From NCBI RefSeq assembly GCF_000710465.2, contig NZ_JAIZ01000049.1, positions 1-36,721 of the forward strand: a stretch of DNA of 36,721 nt, in the 5' to 3' direction. Origin of the DNA: Kitasatospora sp. MBT63. Its GTDB lineage: Bacteria; Actinomycetota; Actinomycetes; Streptomycetales; Streptomycetaceae. A program made the translations under genes and the position numbers. The notes beneath the pieces are model-generated. The model searched no databases, was not told where the DNA came from, and saw only the letters and a list, made by a program, of their open reading frames with translations. Positions 944 through 15,653 of the stretch are shown here, piece by piece (within the stretch, counting starts at the first letter, position 1; each line of letters starts with the position of its first letter).

Positions 944-1342
944 TCAGAGCTGCTCGCCGCGGCGCTGCAGCCCGCGGCCGTACTCGACCATCCGGGCCGC
1001 GTAGTCCGGGGTCCAGTCGGCGCGGGCGCCGATCTCGGCCGGCGTCAGGGCGTCGAAGCGCCGCGGATCCGCCAGCTGGGCCGCGGCGAGTGCCTGGAAG
1101 TCGGTGGCCCGCTCGGCGGCCGCGCGGAAGGCCACGGTCAACTCGGTCGAGCGGCGCAGGAGTTCGGTCGGGTCGTCGATCGACTCCAGGTCGAAGAAAC
1201 GCTCCGCCTCGGGTTCGGCGGCCTGCGGTTCGAAGATCAGCTGGGCCGGACGCAGCCGGCGGGGTGCGGTGCCGCCCTGATCCTGGGCGGCCGGTGCGGG
1301 CACGCCGCTGCGGTCGGACGCCGGTGTACGGGGATCGGGCAT
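944..1342 (-). CDS. hypothetical protein, 132 aa
   Basis: The start is an ATG with a strong ribosome-binding site: GGAGGAG at 1348-1354 on the minus strand, 5 nt upstream. The first ~35 residues are Pro/Ala-rich and probably disordered. Residues ~45-130 look mostly helical and acidic (FFDLESIDDPTELLRRSTEL, then ATDFQALAAAQLADPRRFDALTPAEIGARADW, then a tail with RMVEYGRGLQRRGEQL). There are no cysteines and no membrane segments. I do not recognise a named domain. The LTPAEIGARADWTPDYAARMVEYG stretch could be a small helix-turn-helix-like or protein-interaction unit, but this is a guess. It lies ~180 nt downstream of the nuclease/helicase operon on the same strand and could be co-transcribed with it. 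No terminator is obvious between them. Confidence 0.7.
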   Translation of the reverse strand: MPDPRTPASDRSGVPAPAAQDQGGTAPRRLRPAQLIFEPQAAEPEAERFFDLESIDDPTELLRRSTELTVAFRAAAERATDFQALAAAQLADPRRFDALTPAEIGARADWTPDYAARMVEYGRGLQRRGEQL

Positions 1343-1521: not shown

Positions 1522-2937
1522 TCAGAGCCGGACGCGGTGCTCCGCCAGGTGCGCCAGCACCGCGTGGTTGGCCTCCCAGCCGTCGGGGAACTTCACCGCC
1601 ACCCCCAGCTGGACCGGCTCGGTGGACGGGTGCTCGTCCAGCAGCTCCGCGATCCCGGCCCGGGCCACCACGATGCAGGCGTGCCGGTGGCGGGAGGCCA
1701 GCACGCACAGCCGCCCGGTCTCCAGGTGGAACGCGGTGGCGTCCGGCCGCCCGGACAGCGGGTGCAGCACCACCGTCACGTCGTACTCGCGGCCCTGCAG
1801 CCGGTTGGCGGTGTCCACCGTCACCGCGGGCCCGGCCGCCGGATCCACCGGCACGCCGAGCCCGGCCAGCGCCGCCCGGACCGCCGCCGCCTGGTCGCGG
1901 TGGGCGGTGCCGACCGCGATCCGGCCCGCCGTGAGCGGCGTCGAACCCTGTTCGGAGTGCGCGGACAGCTCCCGGTCCAGCAGCCGCCGGACGGTCGCCG
2001 CGACCGCCGCCACCGCCTGCGGGTCGGTCCGTACGGTGTGCCGGGCCGGCAGCTCCAGCAGCGCCCAGCCGTGCTCGGCCGCCTCGTCGATCGCGGCGTC
2101 CACCGCGGAGCCGTCCGCCCGCACCCCGGGGGTCAGCCGCCGCTCGCCCGCGCCGGTGCCCGAGCGGAACGGCGTGTAGGGGTAGAACGCCGAGGAGATC
2201 AGCGGCGCCGCCGTCGCCGGCAGCCGCCAGGACACCGGCAGCCGGTGCGGCCGGATCGCCGGGTTGTGCGCGAGCAGGGTGACCACCGCGCTGCCGGACG
2301 GGTCGTACGACAGCCCCGCCCACTGCTCGGTGCCGACCACCGTGAACGGGTCCAGCTGGCCCGGATCGCCGACGAACAGCGCCCGTTCGAACAGCCGGGC
2401 AACCGCGAGCAGCGCGTCCGAGCGCATCTGGTACGCCTCGTCGACGATCGCGTGCCGCCACGGGTCGGTGTCCTTCACCCACTGCCACTTCGCGGCGGTC
2501 GAGATCACCACGTCCAGCTCCAGCAGGTCGCCGGCCTTGGCGGAGGCGGTGACGTTGCCGTGCCGCAGCGCCTCCGGGGCGGGCCGGGAGTCGGCGGCGT
2601 GCAGCCGGCCGATGGTGAGGTCCGGGCCCTTCTCGGCGAGCCGGTCCACCAGGTCGTCCACCTGGCTGTTGGTCTGCGCCACGATCATCAGCCGCTCACC
2701 GGCCGCGACCAGCTCCCGGGCGGCCCGCACCACCAGGGTGGACTTGCCCGCCCCCGGCGGGGAGTCCACCACCACGCCGCGCGGCGCGCCGGGCACCGGG
2801 TGCACGGTCTCGGCGAGGATCGCCGCGACGGCGGCGTCGGCGGCCGCACCGGGCGGGACGGGCCCGTCGGGCCCGGCGCCGGGGCCGGGGACGCCGAACA
2901 GGACCGGAGGTTGATGGACGGTCATGGCGGTGGTCAT
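1522..2937 (-). CDS. SF1 (UPF1/Dna2-like) ATP-dependent helicase
   Basis: 471 residues. The ATG overlaps the stop of the upstream gene by 4 nt (ATGA, 2934-2937), which decides the start. Superfamily 1 motifs appear in order: Walker A SPPGAGKST (59-67); motif Ia VAQTNSQVDDL (87-97); a Q/S-T patch ISTAAKW (145-151); motif II VDEAYQM (165-171; DEAY instead of DEAD); motif III GDPGQLDPF (190-198); motif IV SWRLP (236-240); motif V VDTANRLQGREYDVTVV (374-390); motif VI LASRHRHACIVV (413-424). This is the UPF1/Dna2 layout, so a 5'-3' nucleic-acid translocase is expected. It is the last gene of a three-gene operon that also has a Cas4/AddB-type nuclease. Dna2 and AddAB combine the same two activities, so the encoded proteins may form a helicase-nuclease complex. 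That coupling is inferred from gene order, not shown. Confidence 0.85.
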   Translation of the reverse strand: MTTAMTVHQPPVLFGVPGPGAGPDGPVPPGAAADAAVAAILAETVHPVPGAPRGVVVDSPPGAGKSTLVVRAARELVAAGERLMIVAQTNSQVDDLVDRLAEKGPDLTIGRLHAADSRPAPEALRHGNVTASAKAGDLLELDVVISTAAKWQWVKDTDPWRHAIVDEAYQMRSDALLAVARLFERALFVGDPGQLDPFTVVGTEQWAGLSYDPSGSAVVTLLAHNPAIRPHRLPVSWRLPATAAPLISSAFYPYTPFRSGTGAGERRLTPGVRADGSAVDAAIDEAAEHGWALLELPARHTVRTDPQAVAAVAATVRRLLDRELSAHSEQGSTPLTAGRIAVGTAHRDQAAAVRAALAGLGVPVDPAAGPAVTVDTANRLQGREYDVTVVLHPLSGRPDATAFHLETGRLCVLASRHRHACIVVARAGIAELLDEHPSTEPVQLGVAVKFPDGWEANHAVLAHLAEHRVRL

Positions 2938-4514
2938 TCCCACTCTTCGGAGCCGACGGGTGAACTCTGCCCGGCGCCCGGCGGGCCGCCGTGCGTCCAC
3001 GGGGTGTCGTCCGGTTCGGGCAGCGGCGCGGACTGACGGGCAGTCAGCTCGAACAGGGTGAACACCACCCGCTCGCCGACCTCCGGCACGGTACCCGGCT
3101 CCGGCTCCTTCTTGCGGCCCATCCCGGACAGCAGCCGCACCGTCACCTCGCCCGGCGCCGCCGCGACGATCTCCGCCCGCTGCGCGGTCGGCGGGCCGCC
3201 GGCCCGGTGCACCTCGCGGCCCGGATCGGCGTGCGGACGGTCCGGGGTGGCGAGCGTCACCAGCGGCCGGGGCTTGGGGGAGCGGCCCGAGGTGTCGTAC
3301 TCCGGGACCACCTCCGTCACGGTGCCGCTGAACGCCTCGCCGGCCAGCCGGTGCCCGGCCATCGCCAGCGGATCGTCCAGCGCCTCCTGGATGTCCAGCC
3401 GGGCCTGCTCCCGCTCGCGCTGGGCCAGCTTGCGGGCGGCGGTCACCGCGTCGTCCCGGCGCGGCTGGGGCGGCTCGCCGGCGGCCACCCGGTCGCGGTG
3501 GCCGGTGTACGACCAGCGGTCGCCCTCCCAGCGCTCGGGCAGGTGGGCGGCGGGCGGCAGGCCGCGCAGCAGGTCCAGGCCCTGCCACAGGTCCCGCCAG
3601 GTGGGCAGCAGCTCGGCCTCCAGCGCCTCGTGCAGCCGCTCCAGGGCCCGCTTGACGTGCAGGGCTGCCCGGTCGGTGTCGGCCGGAGCGGCCTGCCGGA
3701 GCGCGGCGAGCGCCGCGTCGTGGCGGGTGATCGCGGGCGCCAGCACCTGGGAGTCGAAGCGGGGGTCGGTGAGCGGGCCGGCCGGCGGGTGCAGCAGCCG
3801 GCCGTCCCCGTCGCGCCCGGTCTCGGCGCGCTCCGCCGCCTCGGCGCCGGTCAGCCCGTCGGGCGGGTGGTGCCAGGCCAGCTGGGCGGCCAGGTGCTGG
3901 TCCTCCAGGTGGCTCTGGCCGGTGGCCCAGTGCCGGGCCAGCAGCCCCGTCATCGGCAGCAGCATGCTGCTGCCCGGGACCTGGGCGCGCTCGGCCAGGT
4001 GCGTCAGCCACCGGCCCAGCAGCGGGACCTGAGGGGGCGCCGGGTACGGTCCCGGGTCCGCGTCCTCGGCCGTCCGCCGGAACCGGGTGGACCGCCCGAG
4101 CAGGGCCAGGTGCCGCACCGCGCCCGGGTTGGGGACGATCAGCTGCGGGGCGTCCGCGCACAGCTCGCGGACGACGGGGATCTTCTCGCCGGACTCCGGA
4201 TCCTTCTCGGACCCCTCGATCTGTTCCACCGCGTCGGCGAACGACTCGAGGTAGGGCAGCAGTTCGCCCGCGAAGGCGGCCAGGAAATCGAAGCGCTGGG
4301 TGCGGTTGAGCGGCTGCGGCACGATGAACAGGCGCGGCGCCAGCCGGTCGGTGCCCAGCAGCACCGCCAGCGGCGCGCCCTCCTCGCCGGCCGCCGCCAC
4401 CGGCACGACCACCATCGGGCGCTCGGACAGGTGCCGGTGCCGGACGGTGGCCAGCGGCTCGGCCCGGCCGCTGCGGACCGCCTCCAGCCGGGCGAGGGTG
4501 TTGAGCAGGCTCAC
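2934..4514 (-). CDS. uncharacterised middle subunit of nuclease-helicase operon
   Basis: 526 residues. A GTG start at 4514 overlaps the stop of the nuclease gene (GTGA, 4511-4514), and its own stop overlaps the helicase start, so the protein should be made in fixed ratio with both. The N-terminal ~90 residues are beta-like ([34 protein letters not shown]). The middle is helical and rich in Ala/Leu/Arg ([33 protein letters not shown]). The C-terminal ~130 residues again look beta-rich ([39 protein letters not shown]) and could be an OB- or SH3-like nucleic-acid-binding fold. There are no Walker motifs, Fe-S cysteines or membrane segments. I do not recognise the family. From context it is likely an adaptor or DNA-binding subunit of the nuclease-helicase pair. 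Confidence 0.8.
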
Positions 4515-5818
4515 CGGACCGGCCTCCCCAGCGCCTCGGCCCGCAGCGCCGCCGCGTACGCCAGCCGGGCGGCGGCCTCGTCGGCGTCGCTCCCCGGGTC
4601 GGCGTCGCTCCCCGGGTCGGCGTCGCTCCCCGGGTCGGTCGGGCCGCCCGGATCCGCGCCGCCGTCCCGCTCGCGGGAGGCCGGCGCGGGAACCGGGATC
4701 GGGACGGGGACGGGGGAGCCGGTGCCCTCGGCCGCGGCCAGCGCCTCGCCGACCGTCCGGATCGAACCCAGCTCGCCGCGCACCCCCCGCCCGAGCTGCT
4801 CCACCGCGTCCGCGCATCGGGCCTGCGCCCGGCAGTGGAAGCCGAGTTCGCAGGCCGACAGGCAGTCCGGGCTGTAGGCGGCGGGCACCGCGGCGACCGC
4901 GGCGGCCAGTTCCTCGGCGGGCCGGGCGGGGGCGCCGGTGCTGTCCGGGGCCAGGTCGAAGGTGGTCCCGGCGGGCAGCGCGCCGAGCAGCTGGTCGATC
5001 CTGGTCAGCCGGGCCAGCTGGCGCCGGGTGGTCGCCAGTTCGCGCCGGACGTCGACGGCCGCGGCGGTCGGCCGGTTGCTGAAGTCCTGCGGGCAGACCA
5101 GCAGCACGGTCAGCGCCGGGCTGCCGGGGAACTCGTCCACCTGGTACGGCCCGGCGGCGGCGCTGCGGCCGGCCAGCAGCGCGGCCGTCTCCTGGAGCGC
5201 CAGCACGTAGACCGCGGCCTGCCGGGCGGCCGCGCCGACCTTGGCCGGGTCGGCGACGCTGTCCAGCACCGGGAAGGACTTGATCTCCACCACGGTGCAC
5301 CGCCCGCCGTGCACCACCACCGCGTCCGGTTCCAGGTAGGCGAGGCTCCCGGCCACGGTGAGCCGCAGCATGGGGTGGTCCAGCAGCGTCCAGCCGTCGA
5401 GGTCGGCGGCCGCGGCGGCGAGCACCTCCCGGGTGCGCTCGGCCCGCACCGCCGGGGTGGCCCGGGGCAGCAGGTCGGGCACGGTGGGCGGGGTGCCGCC
5501 CTCGGGTGGCAGGCCGAGCAGCTGGCGCAGCGGGCCGAGCAGCGCCGCGTAGCCGTCGTCCTTGAGCCTGGCCTCGAACACGTTGCCGCGGGCGATGGCG
5601 AAGGGGGACTGGCCGAACGGTGCGGGGCGGCCCAGCTGCTGGGCGACGGCGGCCTTGTCGACACCGGCGGCGTCGAGCACGGCCCGGCGGCGACAGCCGG
5701 GGTTGGCGGCCAGGGCGGCGAGGGCGCGGGCGTCGAGGCTGCGCTGGGGCGTCGGTCCGCGCAGTTCGGCGAGCCGTCGCGCCAGGGGGTCGGCCTGCGC
5801 AGGGTGCGAGACGTTCAT
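4511..5818 (-). CDS. Cas4/AddB-like PD-(D/E)XK nuclease with Fe-S cysteine pattern
   Basis: 435 residues from the ATG at 5818; an in-frame GTG at 5851 would add 11 residues, and neither has a good Shine-Dalgarno site. RecB-type nuclease motifs are visible: RGNVFE (77-82), EPDAVVV (163-169, D165), VVEIKS (176-181, E178 and K180) and the QxxxY motif RQAAVY (Q200, Y204). A lone Cys42 together with C319-x3-C323-x5-C329 matches the cysteine layout that holds a [4Fe-4S] cluster in Cas4, AddB and Dna2 nucleases. Cys335 is extra. The protein should cut single-stranded ends. It is the first gene of the operon, upstream of and overlapping an unknown protein and an SF1 helicase. Near the C-terminus is a Pro/Arg-rich linker and three copies of a six-residue Asp/Ser/Pro/Gly repeat. 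No cas1 or cas2 lies nearby, so this is not a CRISPR gene. Confidence 0.85.
4580..4633. repeat. three 18-bp tandem repeats inside the nuclease gene
   Basis: Three identical copies of gtcggcgtcgctccccgg start at 4580, 4598 and 4616. They encode the repeated acidic SDADPG segment near the C-terminus of the nuclease. The length is a multiple of three, so the frame is kept. Confidence 0.95.
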
Positions 5819-6064
5819 GGTGCGGCCCAGTGTCGCACCCGGCACCGACAATCCGGGCGCTCCCCCCCGCGGGGGCGGCCGCCCGGCCGTTCGGGGACCC
5901 GGCCGCGTCCGGTGCCGGACCTGGGCCGGACCCGGGCCGGACCGGCGTCGTCCGGGTCCGGAGGACGCCCCTACCCGCCGGTAGTCGGCCGGTGCGAGAT
6001 CATGAGGAGGGGGCCCTCAACGGCGAGCCAGGCCGCCGCGTACCAAGCCGCGAGGAGAAACCGC
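5819..6064. promoter_or_regulatory. divergent intergenic region, nuclease operon / histidine phosphatase
   Basis: This 246-nt stretch separates two divergent starts, so it must hold promoters for both. I cannot fix a convincing -35/-10 pair for the minus-strand operon. On the plus strand a purine-rich GAGGAG at 6052-6057 serves as the ribosome-binding site of the phosphatase gene, 7 nt before its ATG. Confidence 0.5.
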
Positions 6065-6787: not shown

Positions 6788-8173
6788 TCAGGCCGCCGCG
6801 ACGGCGGTCCGGTAGGACTCCAGGAACCGCTGCACCTCCGGCACCCGCCGGTGCTCCACCAGCCGCCCGGCCGTGTGCGCGAGCATCCCCCGGATCCGGG
6901 CCGAGCGGACCTGCGCCAGCAGCCCGGTGGCCGCGTCGGCGTGCTCGGCGGCGCCCCGCAGGTCGCCGCGCCCGAGCCGGTCGTGGGCCAGCTCGGCGGT
7001 GTAGAGCGCCCGGTTGCGGACGAAGTGCGGCTGCTGGAGCGCTATCGCCTGCCGGGCCCGCTCGCTCGCCAGGTCCCACTCACCGAGCGCCGCCCGGCAC
7101 TGGGCCTCCAGGCCGGCCAGCTCGGCCTCGCCGAAGAACGACATCCACTCCGGGTCGGCGCCCGACCCGCCGCGGTCGAACAGCGCGTACGCCCTGGAGA
7201 GCGCCTGCTCGCAGGCGGCCCGGTCCTGCAGCAGGGCCCAGCCACCGGCCTCCCGCATGGACAGCAGCGAGAGCAGGCGGGCGGAGCCCAGCCGCCGGGC
7301 GGCGGCCTGCCCGGCCTGGGCCGCGCGCAGTGCCTCCCGCGGCCGGCCGGCGTCCCGGGCCAGAAAGGCGCTGTTGCAGAAGACATGGGCCTCCAGCGCC
7401 GCGTCGCCCGCCATCCGGGCGGTGGCCAGTGCCTCCGAGTAGAACGAGCGGGCGTCCATCAGCCGGTTCGAATCGTGCGCCAACCAGCCCACCGAGATGG
7501 CCAGTTCACCGGCCCCGGCCTGGAGCCGGCGCTCGGTGGCGGCACTGTGGACGCTGTCGTTGAGCAGCAGGTAGGCGTTGCGCAGCGACTGCCCGGCCCG
7601 CTCGAACAAGGTGTCGCCGCCGACGGCGTCGTCGAGCAGCCTGATCTCCCGTACGGCCTGCTCCACCCCCCGGACCTCCGCGGCGCCCACCTTGCGGGGG
7701 GCCGGCAGGTCCGGCCGCGGGTCGAACGGCGGCGGGGCCGCGGCCTGCGCGGGGCCGTCCAGGCCGAGCGCAGCCGCGAGGGCGGTCGGGCCGCCGCTCA
7801 GGAATGTCCGGCGACGCACGTCGTCGTTCTCCTCATCGGGCCGGTGCAGGTCGTCGAGCGGGGGCGGTGCGGCCGGTCCGCCCCCGGTGGCCCGGCGGCG
7901 GACCGCGGTCCGCGGGGCGAAGCCTAGGTCCGCCAGGGAACGTCCCGGCCACATGTGGCGGAACACTCGCTCGTACGCGTAGTTGGGACAGCGGATCTCA
8001 CCCGCCTCGACCCGCCCGACGTAGCGCGCGTCGCAGGACACGTGCTCGCCGATCTCCCGCGCCGCCCGGCGCACCGCGGTGGCGAACTCCCCGGGGGAGA
8101 GGTCGCCGCGCAGCTCGCGCATGACGGTGTTGGGGGCCGCGGGCGCGGGCCCGTCCGGTCGGGTCGCTGTCAT
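6788..8173 (-). CDS. HTH transcriptional regulator with helical-repeat (TPR-like) C-terminus
   Basis: 461 residues. The chosen ATG at 8173 has GGAG 9 nt upstream. The in-frame extension beyond it has no site and poor codon use. Residues ~25-80 form an XRE-like DNA-binding unit (LSPGEFATAVRRAARE..HVSCDARYVGRVEAGEIRCPNYAYERVF), where CDARYVGRVEAGE is the recognition-helix region. After a Pro/Ala linker come roughly 280 residues of paired Ala-rich helices (ALATARMAGDAALEAHVFCNSAFLARDAGR, then ALGEWDLASERARQAIA) typical of TPR sensor domains, which in related streptomycete regulators bind peptides or partner proteins. An internal RRRTFLSGG looks like a Tat motif but is not N-terminal. Target genes are unknown. 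The divergent primase-like gene at 8518 is one candidate. Confidence 0.85.
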   Translation of the reverse strand: MTATRPDGPAPAAPNTVMRELRGDLSPGEFATAVRRAAREIGEHVSCDARYVGRVEAGEIRCPNYAYERVFRHMWPGRSLADLGFAPRTAVRRRATGGGPAAPPPLDDLHRPDEENDDVRRRTFLSGGPTALAAALGLDGPAQAAAPPPFDPRPDLPAPRKVGAAEVRGVEQAVREIRLLDDAVGGDTLFERAGQSLRNAYLLLNDSVHSAATERRLQAGAGELAISVGWLAHDSNRLMDARSFYSEALATARMAGDAALEAHVFCNSAFLARDAGRPREALRAAQAGQAAARRLGSARLLSLLSMREAGGWALLQDRAACEQALSRAYALFDRGGSGADPEWMSFFGEAELAGLEAQCRAALGEWDLASERARQAIALQQPHFVRNRALYTAELAHDRLGRGDLRGAAEHADAATGLLAQVRSARIRGMLAHTAGRLVEHRRVPEVQRFLESYRTAVAAA

Positions 8174-8517
8174 GCTGCGCTCCGTGGTCGTGCACCGGGA
8201 GGTGTGCCGGGTGTGCCGGGTGATCCGGGTACGCCGGGCGGGGGCCGGGTGGTGCGGGTGACCTCCCGGTGTCGGCAAGACAGTACCCGCCGTCACGCAC
8301 CGGTTACTGCGGGTTGCCGCGCAATCTCCGGGCAATAGCGGACATATCGCTCCGGTGTGCCGGTATCCGCCATGAAATGCCATGCCTTGCTGTACGCCAC
8401 CCCGTGGCCTCGGACGCCCTCCGTGCGTTGTCCTGATACGTGGAAGCCCCCGTCACCCGCCCCCACCCGACCGAGTGACCCGGCTTCCGACCTGACGAGG
8501 TGACAGCAGGAGGGCTC
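8174..8517. promoter_or_regulatory. 344-nt divergent intergenic region
   Basis: It lies between the HTH regulator and the primase-like gene. The stretch 8320-8410 has lower GC than its surroundings and includes an imperfect palindrome AGCG-GACATAT-CGCT at about 8336-8350, a possible operator for the neighbouring regulator. No confident -35/-10 pair was found. AGGAGGG at 8509-8515 is the ribosome-binding site of the plus-strand gene. Confidence 0.4.
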
Positions 8518-12414: not shown

Positions 12415-13026
12415 TCAGGGCGTCGGCAGCTGGTGCCTGGTCGCGATGGCCCGGGCGGTGTCCCCGTCCGGCCCGGGCTGCTCGACGAACACGGCCTCGC
12501 GGTAGTAGCGGAGTTCGGCGATGCTCTCGCGGATGTCCGCGAGGGCCCGGTGGTTTCCGCCCTTCTGCGGGCTGTTGTAGTAGGCGCGCGGGTACCAGCG
12601 GCGGGCCAGCTCCTTGATCGAGGAGACGTCCACGATCCGGTAGTGCAGGTACCCCTCGAGCGTCGGCATGTCCCGGGACAGGAAGCCGCGGTCGGTCGCG
12701 ACCGAGTTCCCGCACAGCGGCGTCTTGCCGGCCTCGGGCACGTGCTCGCGGATGTACGCGAGCACCAGCTCCTCGGCCTCGGCCAGGGTGACACCGTCCT
12801 CCAGCTCGGCGAGCAGGCCGGAGGAGGTGTGCATGGTGCGCACCACCTCCGGCATGGTCTCCACCGCCTCGGCGGGCGGGCGGATGACGACCTCCACGCC
12901 CTCGCCGAGGATGTTCAGTTCCGAGTCGGTCACCAGCGCGGCGACCTCGACCAGGGCGTCCCGGTCGAGGTCGAGGCCGGTCATTTCACAGTCGATCCAT
13001 ACCAAGCGGTCATTCACGCCACTCAC
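12415..13026 (-). CDS. orn: oligoribonuclease
   Basis: 203 residues. The GTG at 13026 overlaps the adpA stop by 4 nt (GTGA). It is a DEDDh 3'-5' exoribonuclease that degrades 2-5-nt RNA fragments, including pGpG from cyclic di-GMP turnover. The motifs are WIDCEMTGLD (D12, E14), CGNSVATDRGFL (Asp of motif II), and NHRALADIRES (catalytic His and final Asp); RRWYP and AYYNS segments are also typical of Orn. Length is normal. The overlap predicts translational coupling to adpA. In S. griseus and S. coelicolor the orn homologue (ornA) also lies directly after adpA, and its loss affects growth and development. A second GTG three codons in is a possible alternative start. Confidence 0.97.
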   Translation of the reverse strand: MSGVNDRLVWIDCEMTGLDLDRDALVEVAALVTDSELNILGEGVEVVIRPPAEAVETMPEVVRTMHTSSGLLAELEDGVTLAEAEELVLAYIREHVPEAGKTPLCGNSVATDRGFLSRDMPTLEGYLHYRIVDVSSIKELARRWYPRAYYNSPQKGGNHRALADIRESIAELRYYREAVFVEQPGPDGDTARAIATRHQLPTP

Positions 13027-15653
13027 CCTACGGCGCGATCACGCGTGGCGGAGAGCGGTCGGGCCGTACGGGCGTGCGGAGCCTCGTCGCGTTCGGCCTG
13101 CTCGTCGCCCGCACGCGGCGCCGCCTCCGGACCCGGGACGCCGGTGACCGCCCCGTCGTCCTCGTCCGGATGGGGAGCGGCCGGTCCCGGGCCGCCGTCC
13201 GGACGGTGGCCCAGACCCTGGTCGCGGGCGCTCGGCTGGTCCTGGCCCTGGTCGTCGGCGACCGCGTGCTCCACGGCCCTGCCTTCGCCCCTGCCTTCGC
13301 CCCTGCCTTCGCCCCTGCCCCTGGTCCGGCCGTCGATCCCGCCGCCCGCCCGGTCTTCGCCGCCGCGGTTGCTTCCGCGGTCGTCGGACCGGTCGTCCGA
13401 GCGCCGGTCGCCCGGCCGCAGGTCATCCCGTCGCAGATCTTCCCGTCGCTGGTCCTCCCGACGCTGGTCCTCCCGGGGACCGGTGTGCAGGCCGGTCCGA
13501 GGGTCGAACCGTGGACCGAGCCGTCCCGGACCCGGGGCGTCGGGCGCGAGCCCGCCGGTACGGCCTAGCGGACGTTCCAGGGGCCGTTCGAGCGGGCGCT
13601 CGCCCACCCGGTCCGCGCTGCGGTCGGCCCCCCGGTCCGGTGCACGGTCCGGCATGCGGTCCGGGAGCCGGTCGGAGCTGCGGACCGGACGCCCGCCGGT
13701 GGAGGACGGACCCGGCTGGGGCGGGACCATCGGGCGGACACGGTTGCGCGCGCCCGCCGGCGATCCCGCGGGCTGTCCGGAGGCCGCGGCGCCGTGGATG
13801 CCGGGCGCGCCCGGGAGCCCCTGGCCGCCCTGGCCGCCGGGGGCGTTCGACGGCGCCCCGAGGTACCCCGACGTGCCCGCCTGGGCACCCGGTCCGCTGT
13901 ACCCGCCCGCCATGCCCTGACCGCCCGTCACGCCGCCCTGGCCTGCCGCGGCCAGGCTCGGAGCCGGACGGTCACCGGGCAGCCCCTGCGCCGGGACCAG
14001 GCCGGACGGTGCCGGCCGACGGGCCCGGTAGGTGGTCCGGTACGCGGCCGGTGACACGCCCAACTGGCGCCGGAAGTGCCCCCGCAGGGCCACCGGCGAC
14101 CGGAAACCGCAACGGCGCGCGACATCGTCCACCGACAGGTCGGACGTCTCCAGCAGCCGCTGGGCCTGCAACACCCGCTGGGTGATCAGCCACTGCAACG
14201 GCGCACTGCCGGTGAGCGTGCGGAACCGCCGGTCGAAGGTGCGCCGGCTCATGTACGCGCGCGCGGCCAGCACCTCGACGTCGAACTGCTGGTTGAGGTT
14301 CTCCAGTGCCCAGGTGACCACCTCGGCCAGCGGGTCGTTGCCGATCTCCTCAGGTAAAGACTGATCGATGTACTGGGCCTGACCGCCGCCGCTGCGCCGG
14401 TTCGGCACCACCAGACGGCGGGCCAGGGCGTTGGCCGCCTCGGTGCCGTGGTCGCTGCGGACCACGTGCAGGCAGAGGTCGATGCCGGCCGCCGTCCCCG
14501 CGGAGGTGAGCACGTCCCCGTCGTCGACGAAGAGCTCGCGCGGGTCGACATGCACGCGCGGGTACCGCTTGGCCAGCGTCGGCGCGTACATCCAGTGCGT
14601 GGTGGCCGGACGGCCGTCGAGCAGGCCGGCCGCCGCGAGGACGAACGCGCCCGTGCACAGGCCGATGATCCGGGCGCCCTCGTGGTGCGCCTTGCGCAGG
14701 GCGGTGATCGCCTCGGCCGGCGGCGGCTGGGAGATCGACCGCCAGGCCGGGACCACGATGGTGCCCGCCCGGGCGAGCGCCTCCAGCCCGTACGGCGCGG
14801 TCAGGGTGAGGCCGCCCGTGGTGGTCAGCGGGCCCTCCTCACCGGCGCAGACCAGCAGCCGGTAGCGCGGCACCCCGGCGTCCTGGCGGTCCACGCCGAA
14901 GACGGAGAGCGGGATGGAGCTCTCGAAGATCGGCGCGCCGCTGAAGATCAGCACCGCCACCGTCTCCCGGCGGCGTCGACCGGAGAGCTTGCGGGGGGCG
15001 GGGCCGGAGAGCGGGACGGGTCCGTTCGTCCCCGTGCCGCCATTGCCGCCGGCGAGGGCGGTGCCGGAGCCGGTGGTGGCGCCGCCTCCGTTACCGACTC
15101 CACCCGGACCGCTCAGGGCCGACGAGGAGACAGCGGAGCCGGTGGGCAGGCCGGTGGCGGCCGGCCCCGGGGTCCCGTACGGACCGGCCGGGTGGCCCAG
15201 GGAGGTGCCGTAGCCGCTGCCGCCGCCCATGCTGCCGGTGGTTCCGCCGCTGAGAGCCGTGCCGTTGGACGGCGGTCCGGACGGCAGGCCGGGCCCGGCG
15301 CCGCGCGGGGTAAGGTGCGTGGACGGAGCGTACGCCGCCGAGGCCCGCACGCCGGACGGGAACTGGCCGTGCGTCAGGCCGGAGCCGGTGCCGAGCCCGG
15401 TGTTGATGCTTGCGCTGTGAGCGGGGCCGGGGCCGGGGCCGCTTCCGGTGCCGAGGACTGAGCCGGTGGCTGCGGTCGGGGCGGCGGGCGAGGTGGCGGA
15501 ATCGGCGGGACGGTAGCCGATCTGACCGCCGGTCGGGTGGCCGGGACTCGCCGGGGCGACCCGATTCGGCCTGGACGCACCAGTTCTGGAGGCCCGGCCC
15601 GGGAGACTGGTCGACGGCTGGCCGCTGTCAGGACCCGTGTCGCTCCTGCTCAC
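13023..15653 (-). CDS. adpA: AdpA, AraC/XylS-family master developmental regulator, with long extensions
   Basis: About 876 residues from the GTG at 15653 (a TTG at 15662 is also possible). The core matches AdpA: KLSGRRRRETVAVLIFSG opens a DJ-1/GATase1-like dimerisation domain (~residues 225-400, with GLCTGAFVLAAAGLLDGRPATTHW), followed by an AraC-type DNA-binding domain (~445-545, with ARAYMSRRTFDRRF and RCGFRSPVALRGHF). A TTA leucine codon at 14355-14357, in the linker before the DNA-binding domain, makes translation depend on the bldA tRNA, as known for adpA. Typical AdpA is ~400 residues. Here ~220 Gly/Ser/Thr-rich residues precede the core and ~330 follow it, ending in Arg/Asp/Glu-rich repeats. 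The GTGA overlap with orn supports this frame to the end. The exact start is uncertain. Confidence 0.93.
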   Translation of the reverse strand: MSRSDTGPDSGQPSTSLPGRASRTGASRPNRVAPASPGHPTGGQIGYRPADSATSPAAPTAATGSVLGTGSGPGPGPAHSASINTGLGTGSGLTHGQFPSGVRASAAYAPSTHLTPRGAGPGLPSGPPSNGTALSGGTTGSMGGGSGYGTSLGHPAGPYGTPGPAATGLPTGSAVSSSALSGPGGVGNGGGATTGSGTALAGGNGGTGTNGPVPLSGPAPRKLSGRRRRETVAVLIFSGAPIFESSIPLSVFGVDRQDAGVPRYRLLVCAGEEGPLTTTGGLTLTAPYGLEALARAGTIVVPAWRSISQPPPAEAITALRKAHHEGARIIGLCTGAFVLAAAGLLDGRPATTHWMYAPTLAKRYPRVHVDPRELFVDDGDVLTSAGTAAGIDLCLHVVRSDHGTEAANALARRLVVPNRRSGGGQAQYIDQSLPEEIGNDPLAEVVTWALENLNQQFDVEVLAARAYMSRRTFDRRFRTLTGSAPLQWLITQRVLQAQRLLETSDLSVDDVARRCGFRSPVALRGHFRRQLGVSPAAYRTTYRARRPAPSGLVPAQGLPGDRPAPSLAAAGQGGVTGGQGMAGGYSGPGAQAGTSGYLGAPSNAPGGQGGQGLPGAPGIHGAAASGQPAGSPAGARNRVRPMVPPQPGPSSTGGRPVRSSDRLPDRMPDRAPDRGADRSADRVGERPLERPLERPLGRTGGLAPDAPGPGRLGPRFDPRTGLHTGPREDQRREDQRREDLRRDDLRPGDRRSDDRSDDRGSNRGGEDRAGGGIDGRTRGRGEGRGEGRGEGRAVEHAVADDQGQDQPSARDQGLGHRPDGGPGPAAPHPDEDDGAVTGVPGPEAAPRAGDEQAERDEAPHARTARPLSATRDRAVG
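13278..13313. repeat. three 12-bp tandem repeats in the adpA tail
   Basis: Three identical copies of cctgccttcgcc encode an EGRG repeat in the C-terminal tail of AdpA. They keep the reading frame. Confidence 0.95.
14355..14357 (-). promoter_or_regulatory. TTA (bldA-dependent) codon in adpA
   Basis: On the minus strand the in-frame triplet TTA encodes Leu in D-Q-S-L-P-E-E. TTA is read only by the developmentally controlled leucyl-tRNA BldA in streptomycetes, and this position between the two AdpA domains matches the known conserved site. Confidence 0.95.

Follow-up and report, generated by a model that had tools for sequence, protein, structure and literature searches.

Eukaryotic Dna2, a single protein in animals and yeast, carries an Fe–S RecB-type nuclease, a barrel and a UPF1-type helicase on one chain. 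AddAB and AdnAB likewise combine a nuclease with a helicase acting on DNA ends; AddB has an Fe–S nuclease, and the helicases of both systems are UvrD-like. Cas4 nucleases, whether CRISPR-associated, solo or helicase-linked, have a C-X2-C cysteine spacing. In archaea an operon links Mre11–Rad50 with HerA and NurA, a helicase and a nuclease from families unrelated to those described here. In the accessible parts of three sources, COG2251 is described as a PD-(D/E)XK-like domain, an RNase H-like domain and AAA repeats (PMC3985635), AdnAB is given as the main helicase–nuclease of Streptomyces (PMC5869714), and Cas4-like nucleases are found fused to or beside UvrD or COG1205 helicases, with no UPF1-type trio described in that part of the Cas4 family survey (PMC5704561). 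We found no description of the operon reported here, or of its linkage to SbcCD and Wadjet, in the portions of the literature searched.

The stretch analysed (the window) comprises 36,721 nucleotides from Kitasatospora sp. MBT63, which has a genome of 9.85 Mb and relatives in Kitasatospora and Streptomyces. Three genes lie on its minus strand: A (4511..5818; 435 residues), a RecB/Cas4-type PD-(D/E)XK nuclease by motif conservation and model matches; B (2934..4514; 526 residues), a middle protein without a known family; and C (1522..2937; 471 residues), the core of a UPF1/Dna2-type SF1 helicase that lacks an N-terminal 1B domain. Re-reading the frames gave the same lengths and the same 4-nt overlaps on the minus strand (GTGA at 4511–4514 for A/B and ATGA at 2934–2937 for B/C, read directly) as the first-pass annotation. 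The start of A is uncertain, as a TTG at 5851 is possible; invariant columns begin at about residue 15. A gene for a small protein, E (944..1342, minus strand), adjoins the trio and is a candidate member only. Among the ten window ORFs tested there was no cas1 or cas2 beside the trio and nothing convincing for other cas, transposase or restriction genes, which had also been the earlier impression. Our favoured reading, held with moderate confidence, is that the trio makes up a Dna2/COG2251-type helicase–nuclease split over three chains, which processes DNA ends in its core form and destroys foreign or broken DNA in its accessory form.

The nuclease, the helicase and the middle protein

A belongs to the RecB/Cas4-type nuclease family, with nuclease activity predicted. 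Its nuclease core (residues 143–256; 5051..5392, minus strand), delimited by the strand and helix order of the model and by conservation, holds D165, E178, K180, Q200 and Y204 at the positions originally reported, and these are kept in 94, 90, 89, 96 and 93, respectively, of 98 distinct A sequences. One or two of the misses at each site are gaps, and every true replacement is in a D-type locus (see below). Four presumed Fe–S cysteines, C42 (5693–5695) and the C319, C323 and C329 of a C-X3-C-X5-C stretch (residues 319–329; 4832..4864, minus strand), are each present in 96 of the 98 sequences; the other two are gaps, and no cysteine is ever replaced. A has the fold of Cas4 and, as had been proposed, its cysteine layout, but with C-X3-C in place of the Cas4 spacing. 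The model (mean pLDDT 75, pTM 0.69; cysteine region below pLDDT 50) is most similar to Cas4 (PDB code 7mi5; Z = 10.2, 181 residues aligned, 4.7 Å), with further matches to RecE (Z = 9.0), AddAB (8.9), lambda exonuclease, EXO5, MGME1 and the nuclease of Dna2 (5ean residues 25–397; Z = 7.2, 195 aligned, 5.9 Å). Foldseek alone gave one match below E = 0.001, to MGME1. Pfam returned nothing for A, a PDB profile search gave only designed repeat proteins, none of them credible, and among the known defence systems of PADLOC 2023 A matched Cas4 alone (E = 0.04–0.08) and B matched none.

C is a member of the UPF1/Dna2-type SF1 helicase family, again with its activity predicted. Its Pfam matches above cut-off are AAA_11 and AAA_12, with no UvrD model among them, so that C is UPF1-like, unlike the helicases of AddAB and AdnAB. 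A phmmer search with C found DNA2 and SMUBP2, residues 58–209 aligning with Dna2 651–809 (sequence numbering; E = 1.6e-4). The SF1 motifs noted at first pass are present: across 96 distinct C sequences, ten of 11 key residues never vary where they are aligned, and the eleventh, S66, is serine in 93 and threonine in three. Only 59 residues stand ahead of Walker A in C, compared with at least 158 in 20 of 23 actinobacterial UPF1-like frames (those with a recognisable motif among 30 loci with matches; lengths were taken from the frames, some of which are truncated at the edge of the locus), which is consistent with a missing 1B domain. The RecB-like nuclease–UPF1-type helicase proteins of COG2251/TM0106 (TIGR03491) resemble the trio in having a nuclease, a middle part of similar length and a helicase, and C matches ten such fused proteins strongly (hhalign probability 99.4%), whereas A and B do not match them significantly (1.3 and 0.6%). 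They differ in being one chain; fused proteins of 1131–1308 residues with this domain order occur in other actinobacteria. TIGR03491 had no match in A, in the host genome or in any of 21 relatives. The label PLuB, considered for C, was rejected: the NCBIfam PLuB_AAA match lies far below cut-off, and the literature searched yielded nothing on it.

The first-pass annotation had left B unplaced. This still holds at the level of families, since nothing was matched in Pfam or PADLOC and nothing relevant in NCBIfam, and B did not turn out to belong to an unrelated metabolic family; at the level of fold, the model suggests a placement for the C-terminal part. Residues 359–506 (2997..3440, minus strand) are modelled as a long helix and a β-barrel that resemble the stalk and 1B domain of UPF1/Dna2-type helicases. 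The four top structural matches are all UPF1-type: IGHMBP2 at Z = 9.0 (4b3g; 122 aligned, 6.5 Å) and 8.8, SETX at 8.3 and Sen1 at 8.0. Dna2 follows at Z = 7.0–7.2 (B residues 390–491 against 5ean 475–569: Z = 7.0, 85 aligned, 3.0 Å), and unrelated barrels, flavin reductases and ATPase barrels, reach 7.0–7.7. The B model has a pLDDT of 68 and a pTM of 0.59; the barrel is modelled at 69–87 and the helix before it at about 35–45, so that the helical part of the match falls within a low-confidence stretch. Foldseek alone gave nothing for B below E = 0.001, a PDB profile search gave no credible match, and hhalign against UPF1-like proteins reached 11.9% at best, in the wrong place and not significant. 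The idea of a split Dna2 had been set down before the fold of B was searched. As B appears to end in a 1B-like barrel, it probably completes the motor of C. Residues 1–355 lie outside this placement; for an RNase H-like N-terminus there was a single match, to Orn (Z = 7.8, below the noise level of the tool), and Pfam found no PF13482 within B.

Part by part, the trio thus seems to correspond to Dna2, with nuclease, apparent barrel and helicase in the same order, but on three frames rather than one chain and with weak similarity; the part matches rest on middling models, and profile comparison does not support that of B. The bacterial trio appears to encode as separate proteins the parts of a machine like Dna2, and each part could be removed separately.

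Conservation and the core copy

B was found in 147 of 150 Streptomycetaceae genomes and 51 of 60 genomes of the order, in 70 of 394 of the class by profile search (only three candidates per genome were scored, so second copies may be undercounted) and in 14 of 396 of the phylum by single-sequence search. Three plasmid records contain B, one of which, at 11.9 Mb, is evidently a chromosome; no relatives were found in 50,697 phage records or in IMG/VR scans. All three genes are held by 91 of 96 first-batch loci, in the order A-B-C and on a shared strand in every one of the 91. Exact 4-nt overlaps were counted at A/B in 52 and at B/C in 22 of 73 distinct loci, approximate numbers because starts were chosen by script. 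Two genomes of one other genus are the exception, with A and B together and C about 37 and 50 kb away; other genes lie in between, and in the one genome of that genus inspected they include those for DarT and a macrodomain protein (L156:6243-8008). Apart from this genus the genes are kept together, and the conserved order supports the earlier view of an operon that pairs a RecB/Cas4-type nuclease with a UPF1/Dna2-type helicase, its products probably forming one complex.

The presence of B in nearly all genomes of the family identifies the window copy as part of the core gene set and not as a passenger of a defence island. In core loci A-B-C is followed by E, with neighbours common across Streptomycetaceae. 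E is present in 15 of 16 labelled core loci of the family (the contig of the 16th stops there) and lies on the opposite strand in three loci; no locus was seen to hold both E and the gene D described below. An earlier proposal of a stand-alone anti-phage system therefore misfits the window copy, and only a patchy sister lineage adjoins SbcCD or Wadjet genes. Upstream of the trio, a gene for an NsdA-family TPR regulator (window 6788–8383) is kept in ten other compared loci. Further along (12415–15653), an AraC-type regulator with a DJ-1/PfpI domain precedes a frame that by eye is oligoribonuclease-like; this is the gene order of adpA-ornA and assigns the trio to the core chromosome. The crude gene caller often chose wrong-strand frames in this GC-rich DNA and gene maps were therefore built on HMMs; short loci were omitted from one or both structure alignments (L010, L021, L032 and L038) or from that of B (L023).

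The D-type lineage

What is new here is a second, patchy lineage, in which a fourth gene, D, stands directly ahead of A, and its linkage to SbcCD and Wadjet. We mapped 36 D loci, 35 of them with A-B-C. Of 384 genomes of the class 25 have a D match; 20 of these are strong and all beside a B match, and the remaining five, at E = 2e-31 (with a stop) or weaker, are excluded from the D loci. In the family, D occurs in 22 of 313 genomes, all inspected, and D-A-B-C in 21. Genes for SbcCD (Mre11–Rad50) lie divergently upstream in 12 of the 36 D loci, with 108–147 bp between matched ends, and Wadjet genes lie downstream in five (at 80–438 bp from C in four of them and at 2.4 kb in the fifth); neither SbcCD nor Jet genes were found in a set of 22 mapped loci that lack D. 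The SbcCD arrangement recalls the archaeal Mre11–Rad50–HerA–NurA operon in joining SbcCD to a helicase and a nuclease, but here the link is found in a third of D loci only. In three of the 12 SbcCD-linked loci (L080, L114 and L115) the next gene after C encodes an SF2 helicase with HA domains. L115 (G139:C1:6200-26100) combines Wadjet, the HA helicase, D-A-B-C and SbcCD at about 26 kb or less from the end of a single-contig 8.9 Mb genome. The seven SbcCD loci known when the C tree was made form, together with L104, one supported group (99/96); the B tree has weaker deeper forks, and the two trees are broadly similar. The plasmid loci L043 and L044 are near-identical, the sbcCD of L043 being broken up, and hence the D loci are not all independent.

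The conservation of the nuclease residues, which holds elsewhere, breaks down in this lineage. D165, E178 or K180 is lost in nine of the 35 D-type loci (L079, L103, L196–L199, L202, L207 and L208), while the cysteines of A and the helicase motifs of C are kept; in L209, Y204 alone is changed. SbcCD is absent from all nine. Nuclease activity is thus not always needed in D-type loci; the cutting there may fall to a different nuclease, or A may have a structural role.

Proposed action and alternative readings

We infer that A, B and C bind one another. In the mechanism that we propose, C would be an ATP-driven motor (domains 1A and 2A) travelling on single-stranded DNA, B would contribute the 1B barrel required by motors of this kind, bracing C and probably scaffolding the complex, and A would be the Fe–S nuclease that cuts the strand fed to it by C. 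UPF1-type motors have 5'–3' polarity, which C would be expected to share. Coupled translation would give matched amounts of the three proteins. The role inferred is DNA-end processing, as housekeeping for the core copy and as foreign-DNA destruction for accessory copies. In Streptomycetaceae the core copy most probably works beside AdnAB, trimming DNA ends, flaps or the strands of stalled forks; a near-universal, unannotated helicase–nuclease in this industrially important family would be a further DNA-end processor next to AdnAB. For the accessory copies, which have D and in many cases SbcCD and Wadjet as well, the likeliest task is the destruction of foreign or broken DNA. With SbcCD they would mirror Mre11–Rad50 passing ends to Dna2; Wadjet cuts closed circles, and next to it A-B-C would clear DNA that Wadjet has already cut. 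A bolder extension, which we offer tentatively, is an actinobacterial counterpart of the eukaryotic end-resection pair, in which SbcCD is coupled genetically through D to a split Dna2, sometimes with Wadjet so that Wadjet-cut circles are degraded, with the ubiquitous core copy at work in Streptomycetaceae, whose chromosomes are linear, and some accessory copies having turned into nuclease-dead motors. The accessory lineage offers a direct route to how Mre11–Rad50, a Dna2-like machine and Wadjet cooperate.

The whole family could instead be mainly immune, against plasmids or phages, with the Streptomycetaceae copy a domesticated or permanently retained immune set. The Wadjet and SbcCD neighbours of D-type loci and the patchiness of D in the family speak for this, as does a copy located some 15 kb from one end of a genome assembled as a single contig, Wadjet being reportedly enriched at Streptomyces chromosome ends (PMC10482375). 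We nevertheless consider it unlikely in view of the near-universal B, the lack of SbcCD and Jet genes in the 22 mapped loci without D and the absence of relatives from the phage collections.

UPF1-type helicases often act on RNA or RNA–DNA hybrids, so the complex might do the same, with A trimming RNA, and the best barrel matches of B (IGHMBP2, SETX and Sen1) are indeed RNA/DNA helicases. Yet A is nearest to DNA nucleases (Cas4, RecE, AddAB and EXO5) and the accessory partners SbcCD and Wadjet work on DNA, which makes an RNA substrate quite improbable. We give equally little credence to three co-expressed proteins with separate jobs and no stable complex, A being mainly a DNA-binding Fe–S protein: such an arrangement would suit the broken catalytic sites beside retained cysteines and the genus in which C is separated from A-B, but it sits poorly with the conserved 4-nt overlaps, with the broad agreement between the trees of B and C, and with the absence from the helicase of a 1B domain that B appears to carry. 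The split helicase–nuclease remains our preferred reading.

D itself matched no family, and a PDB profile search gave coiled coils only. A D homologue at L210:9064-12418, where A, B and C were not found, lies between an HU-like gene and one for a 720-residue protein without a Pfam match. By eye, the D proteins (L044:9971-10816 and relatives) resemble a coiled coil with a winged-helix-like segment after it.
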